Assembly: GCA_900318535.1 (NCBI GenBank)
Contig: ONKU01000011.1
Span: forward strand, 1-64,000
DNA length: 64,000 bases
Origin: an uncultured Prevotellaceae bacterium
GTDB lineage: Bacteria; Bacteroidota; Bacteroidia; Bacteroidales; Muribaculaceae
Direction: 5' to 3'
How positions within the stretch are numbered: the stretch's first letter is position 1; each line of letters starts with the position of its first letter. Of this stretch, positions 16,916 through 27,535 are shown one piece after another. The notes beneath the pieces were generated by a model, which saw only the letters and a list, made by a program, of their open reading frames with translations, was not told the origin of the DNA and searched no databases. A program made the translations under genes and the position numbers.

Positions 16916-17089
16916 TTACGGGACACGACGACTGTGATTTGTCCCGTGGACCAGTGCTCTGCCTTGGTCACATTGTGCATATGAGGGCGACTGGTAGTCG
17001 TGGCGGTCATGCCGCCGCTTCATCGACTGGTGCCGTTCCAGCTCGGGGTGGGCGGCCAGCCAGCGCTTCTTGTTCTCGCTCAGGGCCAT
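16916..17089 (-). CDS. Small unknown protein or gene remnant between hairpin repeats
   Basis: A 57-residue frame from the ATG at 17089, MALSENKKRWLAAHPELERH, then a His/Arg-rich part and QSPSYAQ. The upstream AAAGAAAAGAG could serve as a purine-rich ribosome site. The last 18 or so residues are encoded by the hairpin repeat copy at 16918-16966, so the C-terminus is probably not ancestral. I do not recognise the family. It sits between two copies of the same repeat, so it may be part of a small mobile or repeat-borne unit or a decayed gene end. Coding status is uncertain. Confidence 0.35.
   Translation of the reverse strand: MALSENKKRWLAAHPELERHQSMKRRHDRHDYQSPSYAQCDQGRALVHGTNHSRRVP
16918..16966. 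repeat. Partial second copy of the hairpin repeat
   Basis: Contains an 8-base inverted repeat ACGGGACA/TGTCCCGT (16918-16925 with 16940-16947) and then bases closely resembling the arm of the larger hairpin at 17106-17169, in the same orientation. One outer arm is missing, so it appears truncated. Confidence 0.6.
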
Positions 17090-17105
17090 TCTCTTTTCTT
17101 TAACG

Positions 17106-17169
17106 GGGCAGAGCCCCGGCCCACGGGACACGACATTGCGGGGGTGTCTCGTGGGCCAGGGCTCTGCCC
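17106..17169. repeat. Large GC-rich hairpin repeat
   Basis: Two 26-base arms (17106-17131 and 17144-17169) pair at 24 of 26 positions around a 12-base loop. It lies just after the true end of the acyl-CoA synthetase frame and could act as its terminator, but its partial copy nearby suggests a dispersed repeat family. Much more GC-rich than the neighbouring intergenic DNA. Confidence 0.8.
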
Positions 17170-17180
17170 TGGTTGTGATA

Positions 17181-19180
17181 TTACTTCTCGATGCGGATGC
17201 GGGCGTCAACGGCGGTGACGTGGTCGGGACCGGCCAGCAGCGGGTTGATGTCCATCTCCTTGATCTCAGGAGCATAGTGCAGCATGGTCGAGAGGCGGCA
17301 GATGATCCCTTGAGGGAGCGCACCATGTGCTCGGCCTCGGGCTGTGACAGCGGTGCAAGACCGAACTGCACGTCCTTGAGCACCTCAACGAAGATGCCGC
17401 CCAGACCGCACAGCACGTTGTGGCCGAAGGTGGGCTCGAACTTGGCGCCGATGAACAGCTCGGTACCGCTGATCATCTTCTGGATCATCACGGCGGTGGC
17501 GTCGGGAATCTGCATCATGCGGTCGAACTCAGCCTCGAGCTGTGCATCGTCCTTGACGTTGAGCGTCACGCCGCCCACGTCGCTCTTGTGCACGGGACCA
17601 ACGACCTTGACCACGATGGGATAACCCATCTCGCGCGCTGCGGCAACGAGTTCGTCACGGTTGGCCGATACCTTCTCGGGAACGACGGGGATAGCGGCAG
17701 CCTGCAGCAGGGCACGCACGTTGTCGGGGGCGATGTAGCCGTCTTCCTTGATGCCGTCGATGATGGCACGCACGGCCTTGACATCAACTTCGGGGCACAG
17801 GTTGTCGGCGGTAGCGGGCTTGGGCGTGTCGCTCACGCGGATGAGTGCTTCGGCCAGAGCCACCTCATCGGCAAAGTTCACATGACCCTTGTCAATGAAC
17901 TCCTTCACCTCGCGGCCGGCGATGTTCAGGCACGGCAGGACGGGGAAGATGGGCTTCTTGCAGGTGAGCATCTTCTCGTGCAGCACGTTGTAGGCGTCGT
18001 CGCAGGGAACCAGGCCCGGCGTGCCAAAGATGACCACGATGGCGTCCACGTTGTCGTAGCGCTTCTCACAGAAGTCGATGCAGATGCCCAGGTGCTCGGG
18101 GGTACCTGTTGCCAGGAAGTCGATGGGGTTGGCTACCGATGAACCGGGATAGAGCTGTGCCTTGAGTTCCTCGCCGATCTTGGCATCGAGCAGGGGCACG
18201 TTCATGCCGCCCTTGCTCAGGGCGTCGGTCAGCATCACGCCGGGACCGCCGGCGTGGGTAACGATGGCCACATTCTTGCCGGTCATCTCGGGCAGGGTGA
18301 GCACACAGCCGATGGTAGTCAACTGGTCGCGCGAGTAGCAGCGCACGATGCCGGCCTTGCGGAACAGGGCATCGACGGCGGTGTCGCTCGATGCGATGGC
18401 ACCGGTGTGGCTGGATGCGGCACGGCTACCACTCTCGCTGGAACCCGACTTGACGGCGGCGATGCGGCAACCCTTGCTGATGAGCGAGCGGGCATGCTTG
18501 AGCAGGCGCTCGGGGTGAGAGATGTTCTCGATATAGAGCAGCTTGACCTTGGAGTCGCGCTCGGGGTCAAAATGTTCGTCCATGTATTCCAGCACGTCCT
18601 CGATGCCGATTTGCTTGCCGTTACCGATCGACCACACGCTGTTGAACTGCAGGCCCTTGCTCACGCCCGAGTCGATGATGAACACGGCGGTAGCGCCCGA
18701 GCCGCTGATGAAGTCGGCTCCCTTGGGGCTTAGGGCGGGGATGGGCAGTGTGAACACGCTGTGGTGGTTGGTGGTCAACAAGCCGATGCAGTTGGGGCCG
18801 ATGAGCGCGGCACCGTACTTCTCGCAAGTGTCCAGGATGTGCTGCTCGAGCAGGGCACCCTCGTGGGTCTCCTCGCCAAAGCCGGCACTGATAATGATGA
18901 ACGCGCGTACGCCCTTATTCTCGGTCAGGTAGTCGACATACTCGGGGCAGTACTTGGCTGCCACCACCAGGATGGCCAGGTCGGCGTTGGGCAGGTCCTT
19001 CATGTCGTGATGGGCCTGGATGCCTTGTACGACGTCCTCTTTGGGGTTAAGGACGTAGAGGTCACCCTTAAAACCGCCCTGCTTCAAGTTGCGCACGATA
19101 GCGCCACCGGGCTTCTGCTCGTTGTTGCTGCCGCCAATGACGACAATACTCTTAGGATTCAGTAATTGCTGGTTAATCAT
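17181..19180 (-). pseudogene. ADP-forming acyl-CoA synthetase (alpha-beta fusion) with a C-terminal frameshift
   Basis: Residues 1 to about 623 are a normal ADP-forming acyl-CoA synthetase, which makes ATP and a free acid from an acyl-CoA. Visible parts are the CoA-binding domain (LLNPKSIVVIGGSNNEQKPG), the ligase-type domains with the SHTGA phospho-histidine region, and the ATP-grasp beta part (MGYPIVVKVVGPVHKSDVGG, then LCGLGGIFVEVLKD). After MVRSLKG near 17309 the frame changes. The family C-terminus resumes in another frame (IICRLSTMLHYAPEIKEMDI, NPLLAGPDHV) and ends at a stop at 17181. About 20 residues usual in the family are absent at the junction, so an out-of-frame deletion (or collapsed assembly) is likely. 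Divergent from iorAB, its expected pathway partner. Confidence 0.82.
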
Positions 19181-23028: not shown

Positions 23029-23670
23029 TTATTCCTTATTAATGGGTGTAACAACCTCGGCGATGAAGTTGGCGACGCGACGCAGGGTGCCGAGTTGCTT
23101 CAGCATATCTTCGGTGAGCTGCACTTCGAAGCGGTCTGCTATCTCTTGTTGCAGCATTTCCAATTGCTTGGAATCCATCATGAGATCACGAACGAGGTCG
23201 CGGTCTTCTCTTAAAATGATGTGGCCTGTGACATTGGAATCAAGTGGCCTCTGGCGACAATAATCCATGAGCGCCTCGAGAATCACGTCGGCAGCTTCCT
23301 GCTTATCGTTGGCCGCGATGGAGCGCAACTCTTCGGGCCCGACAGACTGATACCTGGGAGGTGGAGGCCCGTAAACCTCGGCAATCGACTGGTTAATGGA
23401 ATCTTGACGTTGTGCCTTGTGAATGGACGGCGGTGGCCCATAAACTTTGGGTATATCACGCGGGTCGCGCCTGATCTGCTCCATGGCAAACAACTCGTCA
23501 AAATCAAATACATCGCCACCAATCGAGACAGCGTCGGCTGCAGTTAGCTCGACATCGTTGATTGGCGGTTGTGATGCCGGTGATCCAGAGATAATGCCTG
23601 GGGTGAGCCCTGCGGCAACCACTGCACTGACAGCCGTGATTGATTTTCTTCCTTTATTCTTCTTTTTCAT
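23029..23670 (-). CDS. Radical-SAM-associated VYGPP/ACP-like protein, paralogue B
   Basis: A 213-residue protein that does not match any family I can name. Residues 1-63 are nearly identical to paralogue A: a Lys-rich start, a hydrophobic stretch (TAVSAVVAAGLTPGI) resembling a signal or leader, then TAADAVSIGGDVFDFDELFA. Two VYGPPP motifs follow at residues 76-81 and 99-104. Residues about 128-210 look like an acyl carrier protein: DLVRDLMMDSKQLEMLQQEI aligns with the ACP serine region, keeping Asp166-Ser167, and FEVQLTEDMLKQLGTLRRVA matches helix III onward. The gene follows paralogue A by 11 bases. It is probably a substrate of the upstream radical SAM enzyme, which is inferred from context and the repeated motif. 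Confidence 0.75.
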   Translation of the reverse strand: MKKKNKGRKSITAVSAVVAAGLTPGIISGSPASQPPINDVELTAADAVSIGGDVFDFDELFAMEQIRRDPRDIPKVYGPPPSIHKAQRQDSINQSIAEVYGPPPPRYQSVGPEELRSIAANDKQEAADVILEALMDYCRQRPLDSNVTGHIILREDRDLVRDLMMDSKQLEMLQQEIADRFEVQLTEDMLKQLGTLRRVANFIAEVVTPINKE

Positions 23671-23681
23671 CGTGTTATGAA

Positions 23682-24347
23682 TTACTCCTCAATGGGTTTA
23701 ACCACTTCAACAATGAATTTGGAAAGGCGATCCAATGTATTGAGTCGCTTGAGCATGTCGTCCGATATCTGAACATCATAGTTTTCCTCTATCTCGTCAC
23801 GCAGAATTTGCAGTTGCTCAAAATCCAACTTCAAGTCCTTGGTGAGGTCAGTATCAGGACCGATAGTGGCATCGGAAATATTAAGCTTGCGGGTAATCCA
23901 ATATGTGATGTCCTCTTGAATGTAGCCTATGGCTCTATCTTTACTGTCGGCTGCGATTTGGCGTAACTCTTCTGCTATTGACATTCGGAGCATAGATGGG
24001 GGGCCGTAAACAAGCTCTCTAGCCTCCATCGCACGGCGGATGGAATCCTCTCGCATCTTGGCACGTATGGCTGCTTGCCGTTCATCGTCATCTTTTGCTA
24101 TGGGAGGCGGAGGACCGTAAACGGTTTTTGGGTGCTGTTGCTCGGTAACGACTTGTTGCATGGCAAACAGCTCGTCAAAATCGAACACATCACCGCCAAT
24201 CGAGACAGCGTCGGCGGCAGTGATCTCGACATCAGGTATAGGTGGCTGTGAGGCAGGAGCACCGGTAACAATGCCTGGTGTGAGGCCTGCAGCGACCACC
24301 GCACCTACAGCGGTGAGCGATTTTTTCCCTTTGTTTTTCTTTTTCAT
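23682..24347 (-). CDS. Radical-SAM-associated VYGPP/ACP-like protein, paralogue A
   Basis: A 221-residue paralogue of the next gene. Residues 1-63 are the shared leader-like region; VYGPPPP lies at 76-82 and VYGPP at 113-117, separated by a charged helical spacer rich in Arg, Glu and Met. Residues about 135-218 resemble an acyl carrier protein (DTDLTKDLKLDFEQLQILRD, then YDVQISDDMLKRLNTLDRLS), but the position of the phosphopantetheine serine is Phe176, so this copy could not be modified there. Its ATG overlaps the radical SAM stop codon (ATGA), which suggests a functional unit. The N-terminal hydrophobic stretch may mean export or membrane association; no lipobox cysteine is present. Function unknown. 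Confidence 0.75.
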   Translation of the reverse strand: MKKKNKGKKSLTAVGAVVAAGLTPGIVTGAPASQPPIPDVEITAADAVSIGGDVFDFDELFAMQQVVTEQQHPKTVYGPPPPIAKDDDERQAAIRAKMREDSIRRAMEARELVYGPPSMLRMSIAEELRQIAADSKDRAIGYIQEDITYWITRKLNISDATIGPDTDLTKDLKLDFEQLQILRDEIEENYDVQISDDMLKRLNTLDRLSKFIVEVVKPIEE

Positions 24348-25429
24348 TGTGTTGTATTATTAAGTTTAATGTTCTTCAGTCGGTTATAGTGACATAACAT
24401 CAAGTCACCATTTTCGTCGCGCAGGTGGAAACCGTTGCCCTCGCAATAGCGGAAAGCTTCACAGTCACGACATGGACCACGCCGCATCCACTCGCGGTCG
24501 CGGTATGGCTCAAAACGGCTCTCCCAGACGTCCCAAAAGCGGTCGCGGTAGATATTTCCCTGGTTGTAATCGCTGCGGATACTCAGGCACCCCGATATGG
24601 CGCCATCGGCACGGATGCTTGCCACCGTCAGCCCGGCTTGGCAATTGAAGAAATAGTCGCGCACAAGCCCTTCATAGGCGCCCAGATAGCCCTCGCAGGA
24701 ATAACTCAGGTTGATTTTTCCCTCGCGGCGTGTGAGAACAATGAAATTGAGCAAGTCACGGAACTGTTCGTCGGTGAGCTGCAGACTATCGTCATCAGCA
24801 GCACGTCCCATGGGGATGATGGTAAAGCAGCGCCAGTGGGTGACGCCAGCCTCAATCAGTAGTTTCTTGAGCTCTTCCAGCCTGTTGATGTTGCGGCTGT
24901 TCACACAGGTAATCACGTCCCACGTTAGGTCGGGGATGGTCTGCACGGCTTCAACGGCTCGCATGGCGCGGTCGAAGCCCGTAGAGGAGTTGCGCAGCCA
25001 ATTGTGGTCATCGCGGGTGCCGTCCACGTCAATGGCAAGGGTATTGATGCCCGCTTGGGCCATTTCATGGGCAACAGCGCGGTCAAGGGTGATACCATTG
25101 GTCACCAGTCCCCACATGAAGCCGCGTTCACGGATGGCACGCCCGCAGTCCATTAGGTCTGGACGTACCAGCGGCTCGCCGCCCACGGTGTTCACCAGCA
25201 CCTGTCTGGGGTTGCAGTGTGCCGCCACATCGTCGAGCACGGGCAGGAAGTCGGCAAGCGGCATGTCGGGCACGGCAGACACCTTCAGGCAGTCGCTGCC
25301 GCAGTGCCGGCACGCCATGTTGCAGCGCAGGGTACATTCCCAAAACAGCTGCCGCAAGGGGTGCTTGCGTTTGAGCCGCTCCACGTGGTCATGTGTGGCC
25401 TCCAAGTATTGTTGTTGTAGCACATTCAT
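24344..25429 (-). CDS. Radical SAM/SPASM maturase (resembles the rSAM/lipoprotein-system family)
   Basis: A 361-residue protein. The radical SAM cluster CNMACRHC (Cys36, Cys40, Cys43) follows LRQLFWECTLR, and VGGEPLVRPDL is the SAM-binding GGEP motif. The C-terminal third is a SPASM domain with an array of cysteines (ISGCLSIRSD, GPCRDCEAFRYCEGNGFHLR and a final LCHY) for auxiliary iron-sulfur clusters, typical of peptide-modifying enzymes. From memory it closely resembles the Bacteroides family TIGR04133, which pairs with lipoproteins bearing a YGxP motif. Here it is followed by two VYGPP proteins instead. It has its own promoter and forms an operon with them. Reaction not predictable from sequence. 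Confidence 0.88.
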   Translation of the reverse strand: MNVLQQQYLEATHDHVERLKRKHPLRQLFWECTLRCNMACRHCGSDCLKVSAVPDMPLADFLPVLDDVAAHCNPRQVLVNTVGGEPLVRPDLMDCGRAIRERGFMWGLVTNGITLDRAVAHEMAQAGINTLAIDVDGTRDDHNWLRNSSTGFDRAMRAVEAVQTIPDLTWDVITCVNSRNINRLEELKKLLIEAGVTHWRCFTIIPMGRAADDDSLQLTDEQFRDLLNFIVLTRREGKINLSYSCEGYLGAYEGLVRDYFFNCQAGLTVASIRADGAISGCLSIRSDYNQGNIYRDRFWDVWESRFEPYRDREWMRRGPCRDCEAFRYCEGNGFHLRDENGDLMLCHYNRLKNIKLNNTTQ

Positions 25430-25454
25430 GAGCCAACAAATTTATTGATATTCG

Positions 25455-25486
25455 CAAAGTTACTACAACAGGTCCAATTATGCAAG
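25455..25486 (-). promoter_or_regulatory. Promoter of the radical SAM operon
   Basis: Minus-strand TAACTTTG at 25462-25455 is a perfect -7 box; CTTG at 25486-25483, 20 bases upstream, is close to the TTTG -33. It lies between the patatin gene and the radical SAM gene, so the operon can be expressed on its own. Confidence 0.6.
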
Positions 25487-25510: not shown

Positions 25511-27535
25511 CTAGAACTCGAAGCCTAGGTTGATGTAGATGGAGACTTGCTTGGTGAAGTTGCTCCAGCTCAACGAGCCGCCCAGGGGGCCGAGGATACT
25601 GTTATAGGCATAGCCGATCTGGGTGCCCCAGATGGGCTTGCCGTCAAAGATGTCGCCCAGTTTGTTGTTTTGTTGGGCGACGTGGCCCTTGACCATGATA
25701 TAGTGCTCCTTGAACAGGCGCTGCTGCACCTTGAGACCTGCAACGAGCACATTCTTTTCCATGACATGACAGTGCCCGAAGCCCGAGAACGGCAGTTGCT
25801 GGGCATAATAGATGCCTCCGCGGTTGCCGCCTAACATGTTCATCGCTGTAGCTGGAATGTCTTTGCCGAACAGCATGCGGCCATATACCATGGGCTGCAG
25901 ATGGGTCGTGCTGGTCAACGGCATGGTCATGCGCCAACGGGCACTCACCTCGCTGAAGCCGGCGTGGCCTTTCCACTGGGCAAAATTGTTGGTATAGTAC
26001 GCATATAAGGCCTCGGCTCGCATACCCGTGTGGGTGAAGTACCAGTGGTCCTCGCTGTTGTACTGGGCGCGGGCGTGGTAGTTGAAATAGTACTCGTTTT
26101 TCAGGAATTCGCTGACACTGTAGGCGCTGTTCAGCACATCATAGTGGTGGTAATGTTCCCAGGCGATGCCCAGGTCAACGTTCAGGTTGAGCGCATCAAA
26201 CGAGAACAGGGTGGCATTGGCCTTCTGATAGATGAATTTTATGGCGTCAGAGCGATGCTTGCCCTGGTACAGGTCGATGCCCTCGTGCCAGATTTCATAG
26301 GACAAGCCTATCTTGCGGTGAGGCTTGGGTATCATGTTCCAGGCCAGGCGGCCCATGGTGCGCTTACCCAGCCTGAGGGTGAGGTCCAGCGTCTTGTCAA
26401 GCTTGTTGCCGAAATAATAGGTTGCACCCACTTGTGCCGCTACCAATTCCTCGTTGTCATAGCGCAGGCCCACGCTCGCCTTGATGGAGTTTTTGGCATT
26501 TTCCTCGTTCACGAGTTTGCCCGCTGTGGTGTTGTCGACGTCGCTCAGGCTGATGATACTGTAATCGGGCTTGTAGTCGTCGGGAACGCCAACCATTCGC
26601 TTGAGTATCATGATGGAGTCCATTTGGGCCCTTGTTGCCTCCTCGCCGCGCCTGATAAGTTCCTTGATGGCCGAGCGGTAGAAATGGGCCGCTGAATAGC
26701 CCCTCACAGGCACGCGGATGATGAGGTCGCAATACTTGTCGTTCTCGTCGCTGCGGTTGTGGATATCGGCTCCCACCGAGCGCTCCAGGATATCGGATGT
26801 TGAGTAGTATTTATCGTTCAGACCCAAATCGGTCCTGACGCCGATGACGATGTCTGCACCCATCCTGCGCGCCAGGTCGGCAGGGAAGTTGTTCTTGGTG
26901 CCGCCATCGACCAGGATATAAGGATCCATTCTCACGGGAGCGAAAACGCCGGGAACGGCCATGCTCGCCCTGATGGACCGTGGCAGCGAGCCGTGGTCAA
27001 GCACCACCTCGCTGTCGGTAACCAGGTCGGTGGCAATGCAGCCAAAGGGGCGCGGCAACTTCTTGAAGTCGATATCCTCGGGTTGGCGCAGGTAGTGGCG
27101 CAGGGTTTTCTCGACGTTGATGCCGCGGATGAAACCTCCCGCCAGCGTGTCCTGGCTCTTGTCCAGGAACAGGCGGTAGTCAAACAGGTAGATGTTCTGC
27201 TTCTCGCGTTCGGCAAGCGTCTGGTTTCTCATCGACAGGCGGTCGCGCAGGATGTCGCCCCAGTCCATGCTGTTGACAATGGTCTCGATGTCGTCAGCAT
27301 CATAGCCCACGGCATACATGCCACCGATGATGCTGCCCATCGATGTACCGGTCACCATGTCGATGGGGATGCCGGCCTCTTCAAGCACCTTGAGGGTGCC
27401 GATGTGGATGGCGCCCATTGCTCCGCCGCCACACAGCACGACGGCCACTTTTTTGCGGTTTCTGTTATCTACTGGCTGGGCAACCAAGCCTGTGATTGCC
27501 AGCAGCATGATGAGTGATGTAATGAATTTTTTCAT
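25511..27535 (-). CDS. Patatin-like phospholipase with C-terminal outer-membrane barrel
   Basis: A 674-residue protein with a signal peptide (LIMLLAITGLVAQ). The patatin domain (about 28-230) shows the oxyanion loop CGGGAMGAIHIGTL, the nucleophile motif GTSMGS and the catalytic Asp in VDGGTKNNFPADL. The middle resembles a POTRA-like linker. From about residue 340 the protein is beta-rich with alternating aromatic residues, ending in YINLGFEF, whose final Phe is typical of BamA/TamA-type barrels. It resembles PlpD-type autotransported lipases, in which a patatin passenger is fused to a 16-strand barrel. The likely role is outer-membrane or secreted phospholipase activity. Confidence 0.88.
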   Translation of the reverse strand: MKKFITSLIMLLAITGLVAQPVDNRNRKKVAVVLCGGGAMGAIHIGTLKVLEEAGIPIDMVTGTSMGSIIGGMYAVGYDADDIETIVNSMDWGDILRDRLSMRNQTLAEREKQNIYLFDYRLFLDKSQDTLAGGFIRGINVEKTLRHYLRQPEDIDFKKLPRPFGCIATDLVTDSEVVLDHGSLPRSIRASMAVPGVFAPVRMDPYILVDGGTKNNFPADLARRMGADIVIGVRTDLGLNDKYYSTSDILERSVGADIHNRSDENDKYCDLIIRVPVRGYSAAHFYRSAIKELIRRGEEATRAQMDSIMILKRMVGVPDDYKPDYSIISLSDVDNTTAGKLVNEENAKNSIKASVGLRYDNEELVAAQVGATYYFGNKLDKTLDLTLRLGKRTMGRLAWNMIPKPHRKIGLSYEIWHEGIDLYQGKHRSDAIKFIYQKANATLFSFDALNLNVDLGIAWEHYHHYDVLNSAYSVSEFLKNEYYFNYHARAQYNSEDHWYFTHTGMRAEALYAYYTNNFAQWKGHAGFSEVSARWRMTMPLTSTTHLQPMVYGRMLFGKDIPATAMNMLGGNRGGIYYAQQLPFSGFGHCHVMEKNVLVAGLKVQQRLFKEHYIMVKGHVAQQNNKLGDIFDGKPIWGTQIGYAYNSILGPLGGSLSWSNFTKQVSIYINLGFEF

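Follow-up and report, generated by a model that had tools for sequence, protein, structure and literature searches.

A TIGR04133 radical SAM/SPASM operon with acyl-carrier-like partners in an uncultured Prevotellaceae bacterium: a variant of a widespread YGxP-protein system

The stretch of DNA analysed here (the window) comprises 64,000 nucleotides of contig ONKU01000011.1 from an uncultured Prevotellaceae bacterium (GCA_900318535.1). Its positions 23029-25429 hold one operon of three minus-strand genes, which code for a radical S-adenosylmethionine (SAM)/SPASM enzyme, partner A, and partner B, in this order. The operon belongs, as a new variant, to the catalogued but unexplained TIGR04133 system: the enzyme is a full member of the TIGR04133 family, and proteins with the motif Tyr-Gly-x-Pro (YGxP) are encoded beside enzymes of this clade at most of the loci compared. 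We judge it slightly more probable than the contrary that the TIGR04133 enzyme excises tyramine at the YGxP sites of the adjacently encoded proteins in a splicease-like manner, a chemistry proposed from the motif and from the kinship of the enzyme. In the window, the lipoprotein of the system would have been rebuilt as a leader, a linker with VYGPP motifs, and an acyl carrier protein (ACP) fold.

YGxP motifs beside TIGR04133-clade enzymes

The window enzyme scored 512.6 bits (E 4.4e-154) against TIGR04133, for which the cut-off is 425, and the kinship with this family that the initial annotation had proposed for the 361-residue protein was thus confirmed. PF04055 and PF13186 (SPASM) both exceeded their gathering scores, C36, C40, and C43 of the CX3CX2C motif were invariant in 26 aligned rows, and the predicted structure (predicted local distance difference test, pLDDT, 89.4) had an ordinary SPASM-type fold, nearest to SkfB, SuiB, and anSME. 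In NCBIfam, TIGR04133 is a "hypothetical equivalog" with its function unstated. Within the window's family, 28 of 198 genomes had a match above the cut-off, and within its order, Bacteroidales, 61 of 295 did; by genus, the order scan placed TIGR04133 in 50 of 184 (E up to 1e-80). The closest relatives of the window enzyme (89-90% identity) came from metagenome genomes labelled uncultured Bacteroidales or Porphyromonadaceae, and the next (85%) from Muribaculaceae and Prevotellaceae. Plasmid records gave three TIGR04133-level matches (45-55% identity; the following row, 29.5%), carried by Phocaeicola massiliensis, Parabacteroides distasonis, and, outside the phylum, Treponema saccharophilum. In P. 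distasonis, the enzyme is WP_036633130.1, and the lipoprotein, WP_005853865.1, contains CEYGSP. Phage records also gave three matches, all at or below 27.6% identity.

For the motif comparison, 176 enzyme open reading frames (ORFs) scoring above 400 bits were collapsed to 147 distinct loci by identity over the last 250 residues; a partial enzyme (L152) fell below the 400-bit limit and was excluded. The motif was counted when Tyr-Gly-x-Pro occurred in an ORF on the same strand as the enzyme and no more than 1.5 kb away from it. This was the case at 124 of the 147 loci, which are related and so do not represent independent events. When the residues of the ORFs were shuffled (20 rounds), the motif was found at a mean of 10.7 loci (range 2-16), and ORFs of the opposite strand contained it at 23. 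Eight other radical SAM loci served as a control (mycofactocin, PqqE, NirJ, TIGR04053, TIGR04347, two beside CGSACGAG peptides, and one phage record), and none of them had a YGxP neighbour. At 113 of these 124 loci, no more than 60 bp separated the motif ORF from the enzyme ORF, and at 51 the two overlapped, a number that may be too high because ORFs were taken from the first ATG, GTG, or TTG. A looser motif, with Pro somewhat further past YG, added 11 loci, of which two appeared spurious (L150 and L224).

Across the 172 YGxP matches of the near ORFs, in which the pattern searched for dictates Y, G, and P, the X of XYG was mostly V (56), E (32), C (27), M (19), or K (17), followed by L (7), R (4), and others. 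An alignment was made of 85 of the 126 candidate partners, hand-picked with near-duplicates and obvious non-partners avoided; its rows were selected by the motif, the near-invariance of Y, G, and P in it is by construction, and it was not used as evidence.

Partner proteins and their exchangeable domains

The layout given in the initial annotation held: the stop codon of the enzyme gene and the start codon of partner A overlap in ATGA (24344-24347), 11 bases separate partner A from partner B, a promoter match precedes the operon, and the first 63 residues of the partners are nearly identical (55 of 63), with diverged middle parts (19 of 46 identical, 14 gaps). In the C-terminal parts, 41 of 98 residues are identical. 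Of the 63 leader codons, 31 are the same in both genes, and because 24 differ synonymously and eight non-synonymously, the leader sequences point to purifying selection. In the predicted model of partner A, residues 9-29 of the leader had pLDDT below 50.

The description of the partners as ACP-like stood as to family and fold. PF00550 matched partners A and B with 21.5 and 22.6 bits, slightly over the gathering score of 20.8 (matches to the NCBIfam ACP models fell below their cut-offs), and the predicted model of partner A matched ACP crystal structures in Foldseek (3gzl: 75 columns, template modelling score 0.82 by target, 29% identity). It did not stand as to the cofactor site, since partner A has Phe at the position of the phosphopantetheine serine (DFEQL). 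Partner B has Ser there (DSKQL), and the canonical motif DSL is absent from both. TIGR04134 had no match to either partner up to E = 1, and membership of the partners in that family was rejected. The suggestion that a carrier-protein-like scaffold takes the place of the lipoprotein was borne out. The operon resembles the TIGR04133 + TIGR04134 radical SAM/lipoprotein system in its enzyme, a full member, and in the adjacent YGxP genes, whereas its partners have two VYGPP each and an ACP-like domain where TIGR04134 proteins have an Ig-like/CarboxypepD_reg domain. A further resemblance is to TIGR04069 (ocin_ACP_rel), the ACP-related component of a peptide maturation system; two of the 33 partners with the window-type leader matched it weakly (best E 0.001).

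These 33 partners come only from the genus of the window and its close relatives, with the proviso that the metagenome genomes of the order scan carry no genus placement. Seven of them end in TonB_C, and the other 26 have ACP-like or unassigned C-termini (Pfam PP-binding was found in 14); both types occur together at L008, L119, L120, and L153. The cofactor serine position is occupied by Ser in seven of the 26 ACP-type partners and has lost it in 19, partner A among them, while canonical DS[LI] is present in four (L148, L009, L011, and L004, the last assigned to this class by hand). Because the cofactor serine is mostly lost, the ACP domain is, on this sequence evidence, a scaffold that derives from a real carrier protein and is mostly unusable as one. 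That the partners are working carriers, with phosphopantetheine on the ACP domain and an acyl or aminoacyl cargo as the target of the enzyme, would agree with the PF00550 score, the fold, and the four DS[LI] proteins. It was dropped as the explanation and is very improbable, given the 19 lost serines and the replacement of ACP by TonB_C in sister operons; moreover, no adenylation-domain or ketosynthase gene was recognised on reading the ORFs at 17-32 kb. L010, L011, and L012 have a lipobox-like Cys close to where the hydrophobic stretch of the leader ends, an indication that the leader is the signal peptide of an ancestral lipoprotein.

Homologues of the partners were not found widely apart from the radical SAM gene, a finding that would have spoken against the pairing. 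All nine genomes with a leader match (among the 198 of the family, window included) have an adjacent TIGR04133 gene. The remaining partner matches in these genomes cover the ACP part only: the one in G060 is the final portion of a further partner that adjoins a TIGR04133 gene, and the others, by comparison of coordinates, are frames of 85-111 amino acids (aa) resembling housekeeping ACPs.

Outside the leader-type group, 85 of the 126 candidate partners were scanned, and 53 of these matched TIGR04134 at E up to 0.01; the commonest Pfam match was CarboxypepD_reg (36). Above its cut-off, TIGR04134 was found in five of the 198 family genomes, against 28 for TIGR04133. The other types comprise short lipoproteins, each bearing one to three VYGPP, YGGP proteins of acidic composition, and peptides of 54-92 aa, two of which (L035 and L037) end, by reading, in a membrane-helix-like stretch. 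A lipobox-like Cys precedes YG in 96 of the 126 candidates (median distance 10 residues), an undercount, as the pattern misses GFSC-type sites. In 26 of the 96, this Cys is itself the X of CYG (e.g. FQACYGTP and LAACYGAP; Table 1).

The initial annotation had read the partners as a conserved recognition region followed by a variable modified region. This was not supported, and a leader serving as the recognition region of a ribosomally synthesised and post-translationally modified peptide (RiPP) with a variable core was dropped: the leader is local to the genus and its near relatives, and the element common to the partner types is the short YGxP. YGxP is the likelier modification site. If it were a docking tag only, with the modified residues elsewhere in the partner, its varying position within the protein and the one to four YG per candidate would be accommodated. 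We regard this as improbable, since several partners of just 54-92 aa hold one or two YGPP and show no recognised domain, and little else is visibly common to the partner types. The initial annotation also knew of no system with this architecture; the operon proved less isolated, being a variant within a widespread system that pairs the enzyme with YGxP proteins.

Kinship with spliceases and the proposed chemistry

PlpX/PlpY spliceases and spliceotides were reportedly described in Morinaka 2018 and are treated in PMC11002830 and PMC10533398. Enzymes of this kind cut part of a tyrosine from the protein backbone at a tag that the motif of the partners matches; PlpXY acts on XYG, with MYG and LYG natural and GYG accepted, and the leader is unnecessary (PMC10533398), and several sites per precursor are possible (PMC10373908). 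Tags derived from PlpA include PIRPLYGLPI and PIRPGYGLPI, i.e. YGxP (PMC10533398), and PlpX is assigned to IPR026482 (PMC11002830). In Nostoc sp. C057, an annotated nif11-class maturase 3 (TIGR04103) lies between a Nif11 precursor ending in IALYGLPPELF and a 71-aa protein, which occupies the place of PlpY. We take IPR026482 to be TIGR04103, in line with this annotation.

TIGR04103 was the second-best NCBIfam match of the window enzyme (128.2 bits), followed by heme b synthase and the GDL-motif family (TIGR03913) with 119 bits each. The operon shares with the PlpX/PlpY system a SPASM enzyme with some common residues, XYG with a Pro at +3 as in some PlpX substrates, and the possibility of multiple sites. 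With the GDL-motif/DUF1843 maturases it shares a related enzyme and XYG, which in the GDL peptides lies near the N-terminus. GDL-type enzymes of Azospirillum, Aureibacter, and L095 (another Bacteroidota genome, placed as GDL by its tree position) adjoin DUF1843-type peptides, in which XYG appears, for example, as RPYGPAM, KPYGVAI, QPYGAGI, MPYGVAV, or MLYGGAM, with YA or YM for YG in some. These peptides differ from the window partners in being about 54-70 aa long. As a separate observation, the DUF1843-type "GDL" peptides of L094, L108, L092, and L095, with XYG (or XYA/XYM) near the N-terminus and enzymes that cluster with the PlpX type, may be splicease substrates.

The enzyme tree contained 57 rows: 34 of the 147 TIGR04133 loci, hand-picked for spread, and 23 others. 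TIGR04133 formed one clade of 34 rows (support 100/100), and the PlpX type paired with GDL (100/99). Six residues (E31, G44, S45, T174, W199, and G247) were present in at least 33 of the 34 TIGR04133 rows, in seven of seven XYG-group rows, and in at most three of eight outgroup rows.

From the motif and this kinship, the following course is proposed. The TIGR04133 enzyme would modify Tyr-Gly-x-Pro of the proteins encoded by neighbouring genes; in the window, the predicted targets are both VYGPP in the linker of each partner, each of which would lose C8H9NO (about 135.07 Da; 135.0684 Da by our calculation, printed as 135.0757 in PMC10533398). The modified partners would then be exported. The linker with the modified sites would be held with a leader or anchor on its N-terminal side and a small folded domain on the other. 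This domain is exchangeable: an acyl-carrier fold in the window, TonB_C in sister operons, and an Ig-like/CarboxypepD_reg lipoprotein elsewhere. The modified site may serve as a tethered electrophile or a protease inhibitor; related products are reported as protease inhibitors in PMC10373908 and PMC11117315, both citing Scott 2022.

Several points weigh against tyramine excision by the TIGR04133 enzyme. Even by the relaxed pattern, 12 of the 147 loci had no motif within the distance limits, some of them at contig ends; three of the 12 (L119, L125, and L153) have leader-type partners in which YG lacks a near Pro or lies past the distance limit. The operon also differs from the PlpX/PlpY system: its enzyme is far under the TIGR04103 cut-off of 725, no PlpY-like small gene was found (no separate ORF of at least 60 aa in the operon), and the partners have no Nif11/NHLP leader and carry folded C-terminal domains. 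XYG in the GDL peptides is without the +3 Pro. In PMC10533398, most YGLP tags tested in FtsZ are marked unmodified and one longer GYGLPI insert modified. TIGR04133 joined the PlpX/GDL group against other SPASM enzymes with weak support (91/54), and several outgroup rows have long branches. The wider PlpX/GDL group includes eight rows of family f18, of which L097 alone has a clear YGxP neighbour; it is absent beside L096, L098, L100, L104, and L103, and distant or doubtful beside L101 and L102. All eight f18 rows, most of them without a clear YGxP neighbour, carry E31, S45, T174, W199, and G247, and three carry G44, so the shared residues mark a wider clade and not the motif. Our confidence in tyramine excision was lowered marginally because these residues did not track XYG in f18.

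The same evidence bears on another reaction at YGxP without loss of tyramine, such as a cross-link formed by the ring or the beta-carbon of Tyr, an epimerisation, or some oxidative modification, which we hold to be unlikely but a serious contender. SPASM enzymes catalyse many reactions, SkfB, SuiB, and anSME are the closest matches in structure, the tree attaches TIGR04133 only weakly to the PlpX group, and the common residues also occur in relatives without XYG neighbours; a published tag without the +3 Pro, GAVAAGYGVVFPG, which PMC10533398 marks as unmodified in FtsZ, may mean that Pro is no general need of the PlpX type, whereas it is common here. Fixed Y and G with a varying X is, however, what the XYG rule of spliceases predicts, and a cross-link would be expected to fix the neighbouring residue.

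If the TIGR04133 enzyme does excise tyramine, a family of unstated function would be tied to chemistry that was originally characterised in a cyanobacterium, and common Bacteroidales would put ketoamides on exported proteins. The YGxP link gives TIGR04133 a specific predicted change, the loss of C8H9NO per site, and if the motif match holds, many such bacteria would make exported proteins with unusual built-in beta-amino acids. A broader proposal is offered tentatively: TIGR04133 could be a large class of spliceases whose substrates are exported proteins and not small peptides. Many Bacteroidales would then have outer-membrane or periplasmic proteins whose backbone contains alpha-keto-beta-amino acids; among the CYG lipoproteins, the lipid-bearing first Cys would be the residue converted, so that they start with a beta-amino acid, and near the window the lipoprotein would have been rebuilt on ACP and TonB_C folds. 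Scott 2022, reportedly the main splicease survey, names proteins as well as peptides in its title. This article (Chem) and Richter 2024 (Chem Sci) lay outside our literature search, which returned no paper on TIGR04133, TIGR04134 or the lipoprotein names, VYGPP, or radical SAM with YGPP. According to PMC10373908, the survey of Scott 2022 found splicing broadly across bacteria.

Two loci outside TIGR04133 were observed in passing. In the window's order, L099:1468-3599 (also L238) has a 483-aa radical SAM enzyme, nearest in the tree to the Agathobacter enzyme, beside a 214-aa protein with six KYGYP towards its C-terminus, which looks like a multi-site XYG substrate. On a plasmid of Agathobacter rectalis (L093:3725-5167), a radical SAM gene has an unannotated upstream 68-aa ORF ending in NLFGPVMYGTGVRM and a downstream major facilitator superfamily transporter gene, possibly an XYG peptide system in a Firmicute.

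Feature coordinates and neighbouring genes

The features are listed in Table 1. The promoter match lies within the 81-base gap between the enzyme gene and the same-strand upstream gene, which is patatin-like as judged by reading its translation. The promoter pattern, which we take to be the Bacteroidota consensus, occurred eight times in the window, where 0.35 occurrences were expected. On reading the ORFs at 17-32 kb, neither a peptidase gene nor one for a peptide exporter was recognised; the partners bear large folded C-termini.

Table 1. Coordinates of the operon, its parts, and neighbouring features in the window, with the loci of the CYG lipoproteins
Feature	Position	Strand	Remarks
TIGR04133 radical SAM/SPASM enzyme	24344..25429	-	361 aa; CX3CX2C = CNMACRHC; six Cys in the SPASM region
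Partner A	23682..24347	-	221 aa; leader, two VYGPP, ACP-fold C-terminus, Phe at cofactor Ser position
Partner B	23029..23670	-	213 aa; leader, two VYGPP, ACP-like C-terminus, Ser (DSK)
Bacteroidota-type promoter match	25455..25485	-	TTG-N20-TAACTTTG; 5' of the enzyme gene
Leader of partner A, residues 1-63	24159..24347	-	signal-peptide-like; TAADxVxIxG...FDELxAM
Leader of partner B, residues 1-63	23482..23670	-	
Partner A, first VYGPP, residues 76-80	24108..24122	-	proposed modification site
Partner A, second VYGPP, residues 113-117	23997..24011	-	
Partner B, first VYGPP, residues 76-80	23431..23445	-	
Partner B, second VYGPP, residues 99-103	23362..23376	-	
Partner A, ACP-like domain, residues 143-214	23706..23921	-	
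Partner B, ACP-like domain match, residues 155-205	23056..23208	-	
Upstream gene	25511..27535	-	
Acyl-CoA-synthetase-like ORF	16916..19180		
CYG lipoproteins (26)			L205, L206, L208-L213, L215, L216, L218-L223, L151, L225, L227, L229-L231, L233, L234, L091, L197

In L057 and L058, from the window's family, radical SAM genes lie beside 57-aa peptides with two CGSACGAG repeats, which are likely Cys-rich RiPP precursors. In the window itself, the final approximately 120 residues of the acyl-CoA-synthetase-like ORF are arginine/serine-rich and appear, by reading, to be out of frame, possibly through a frameshift or an assembly error.

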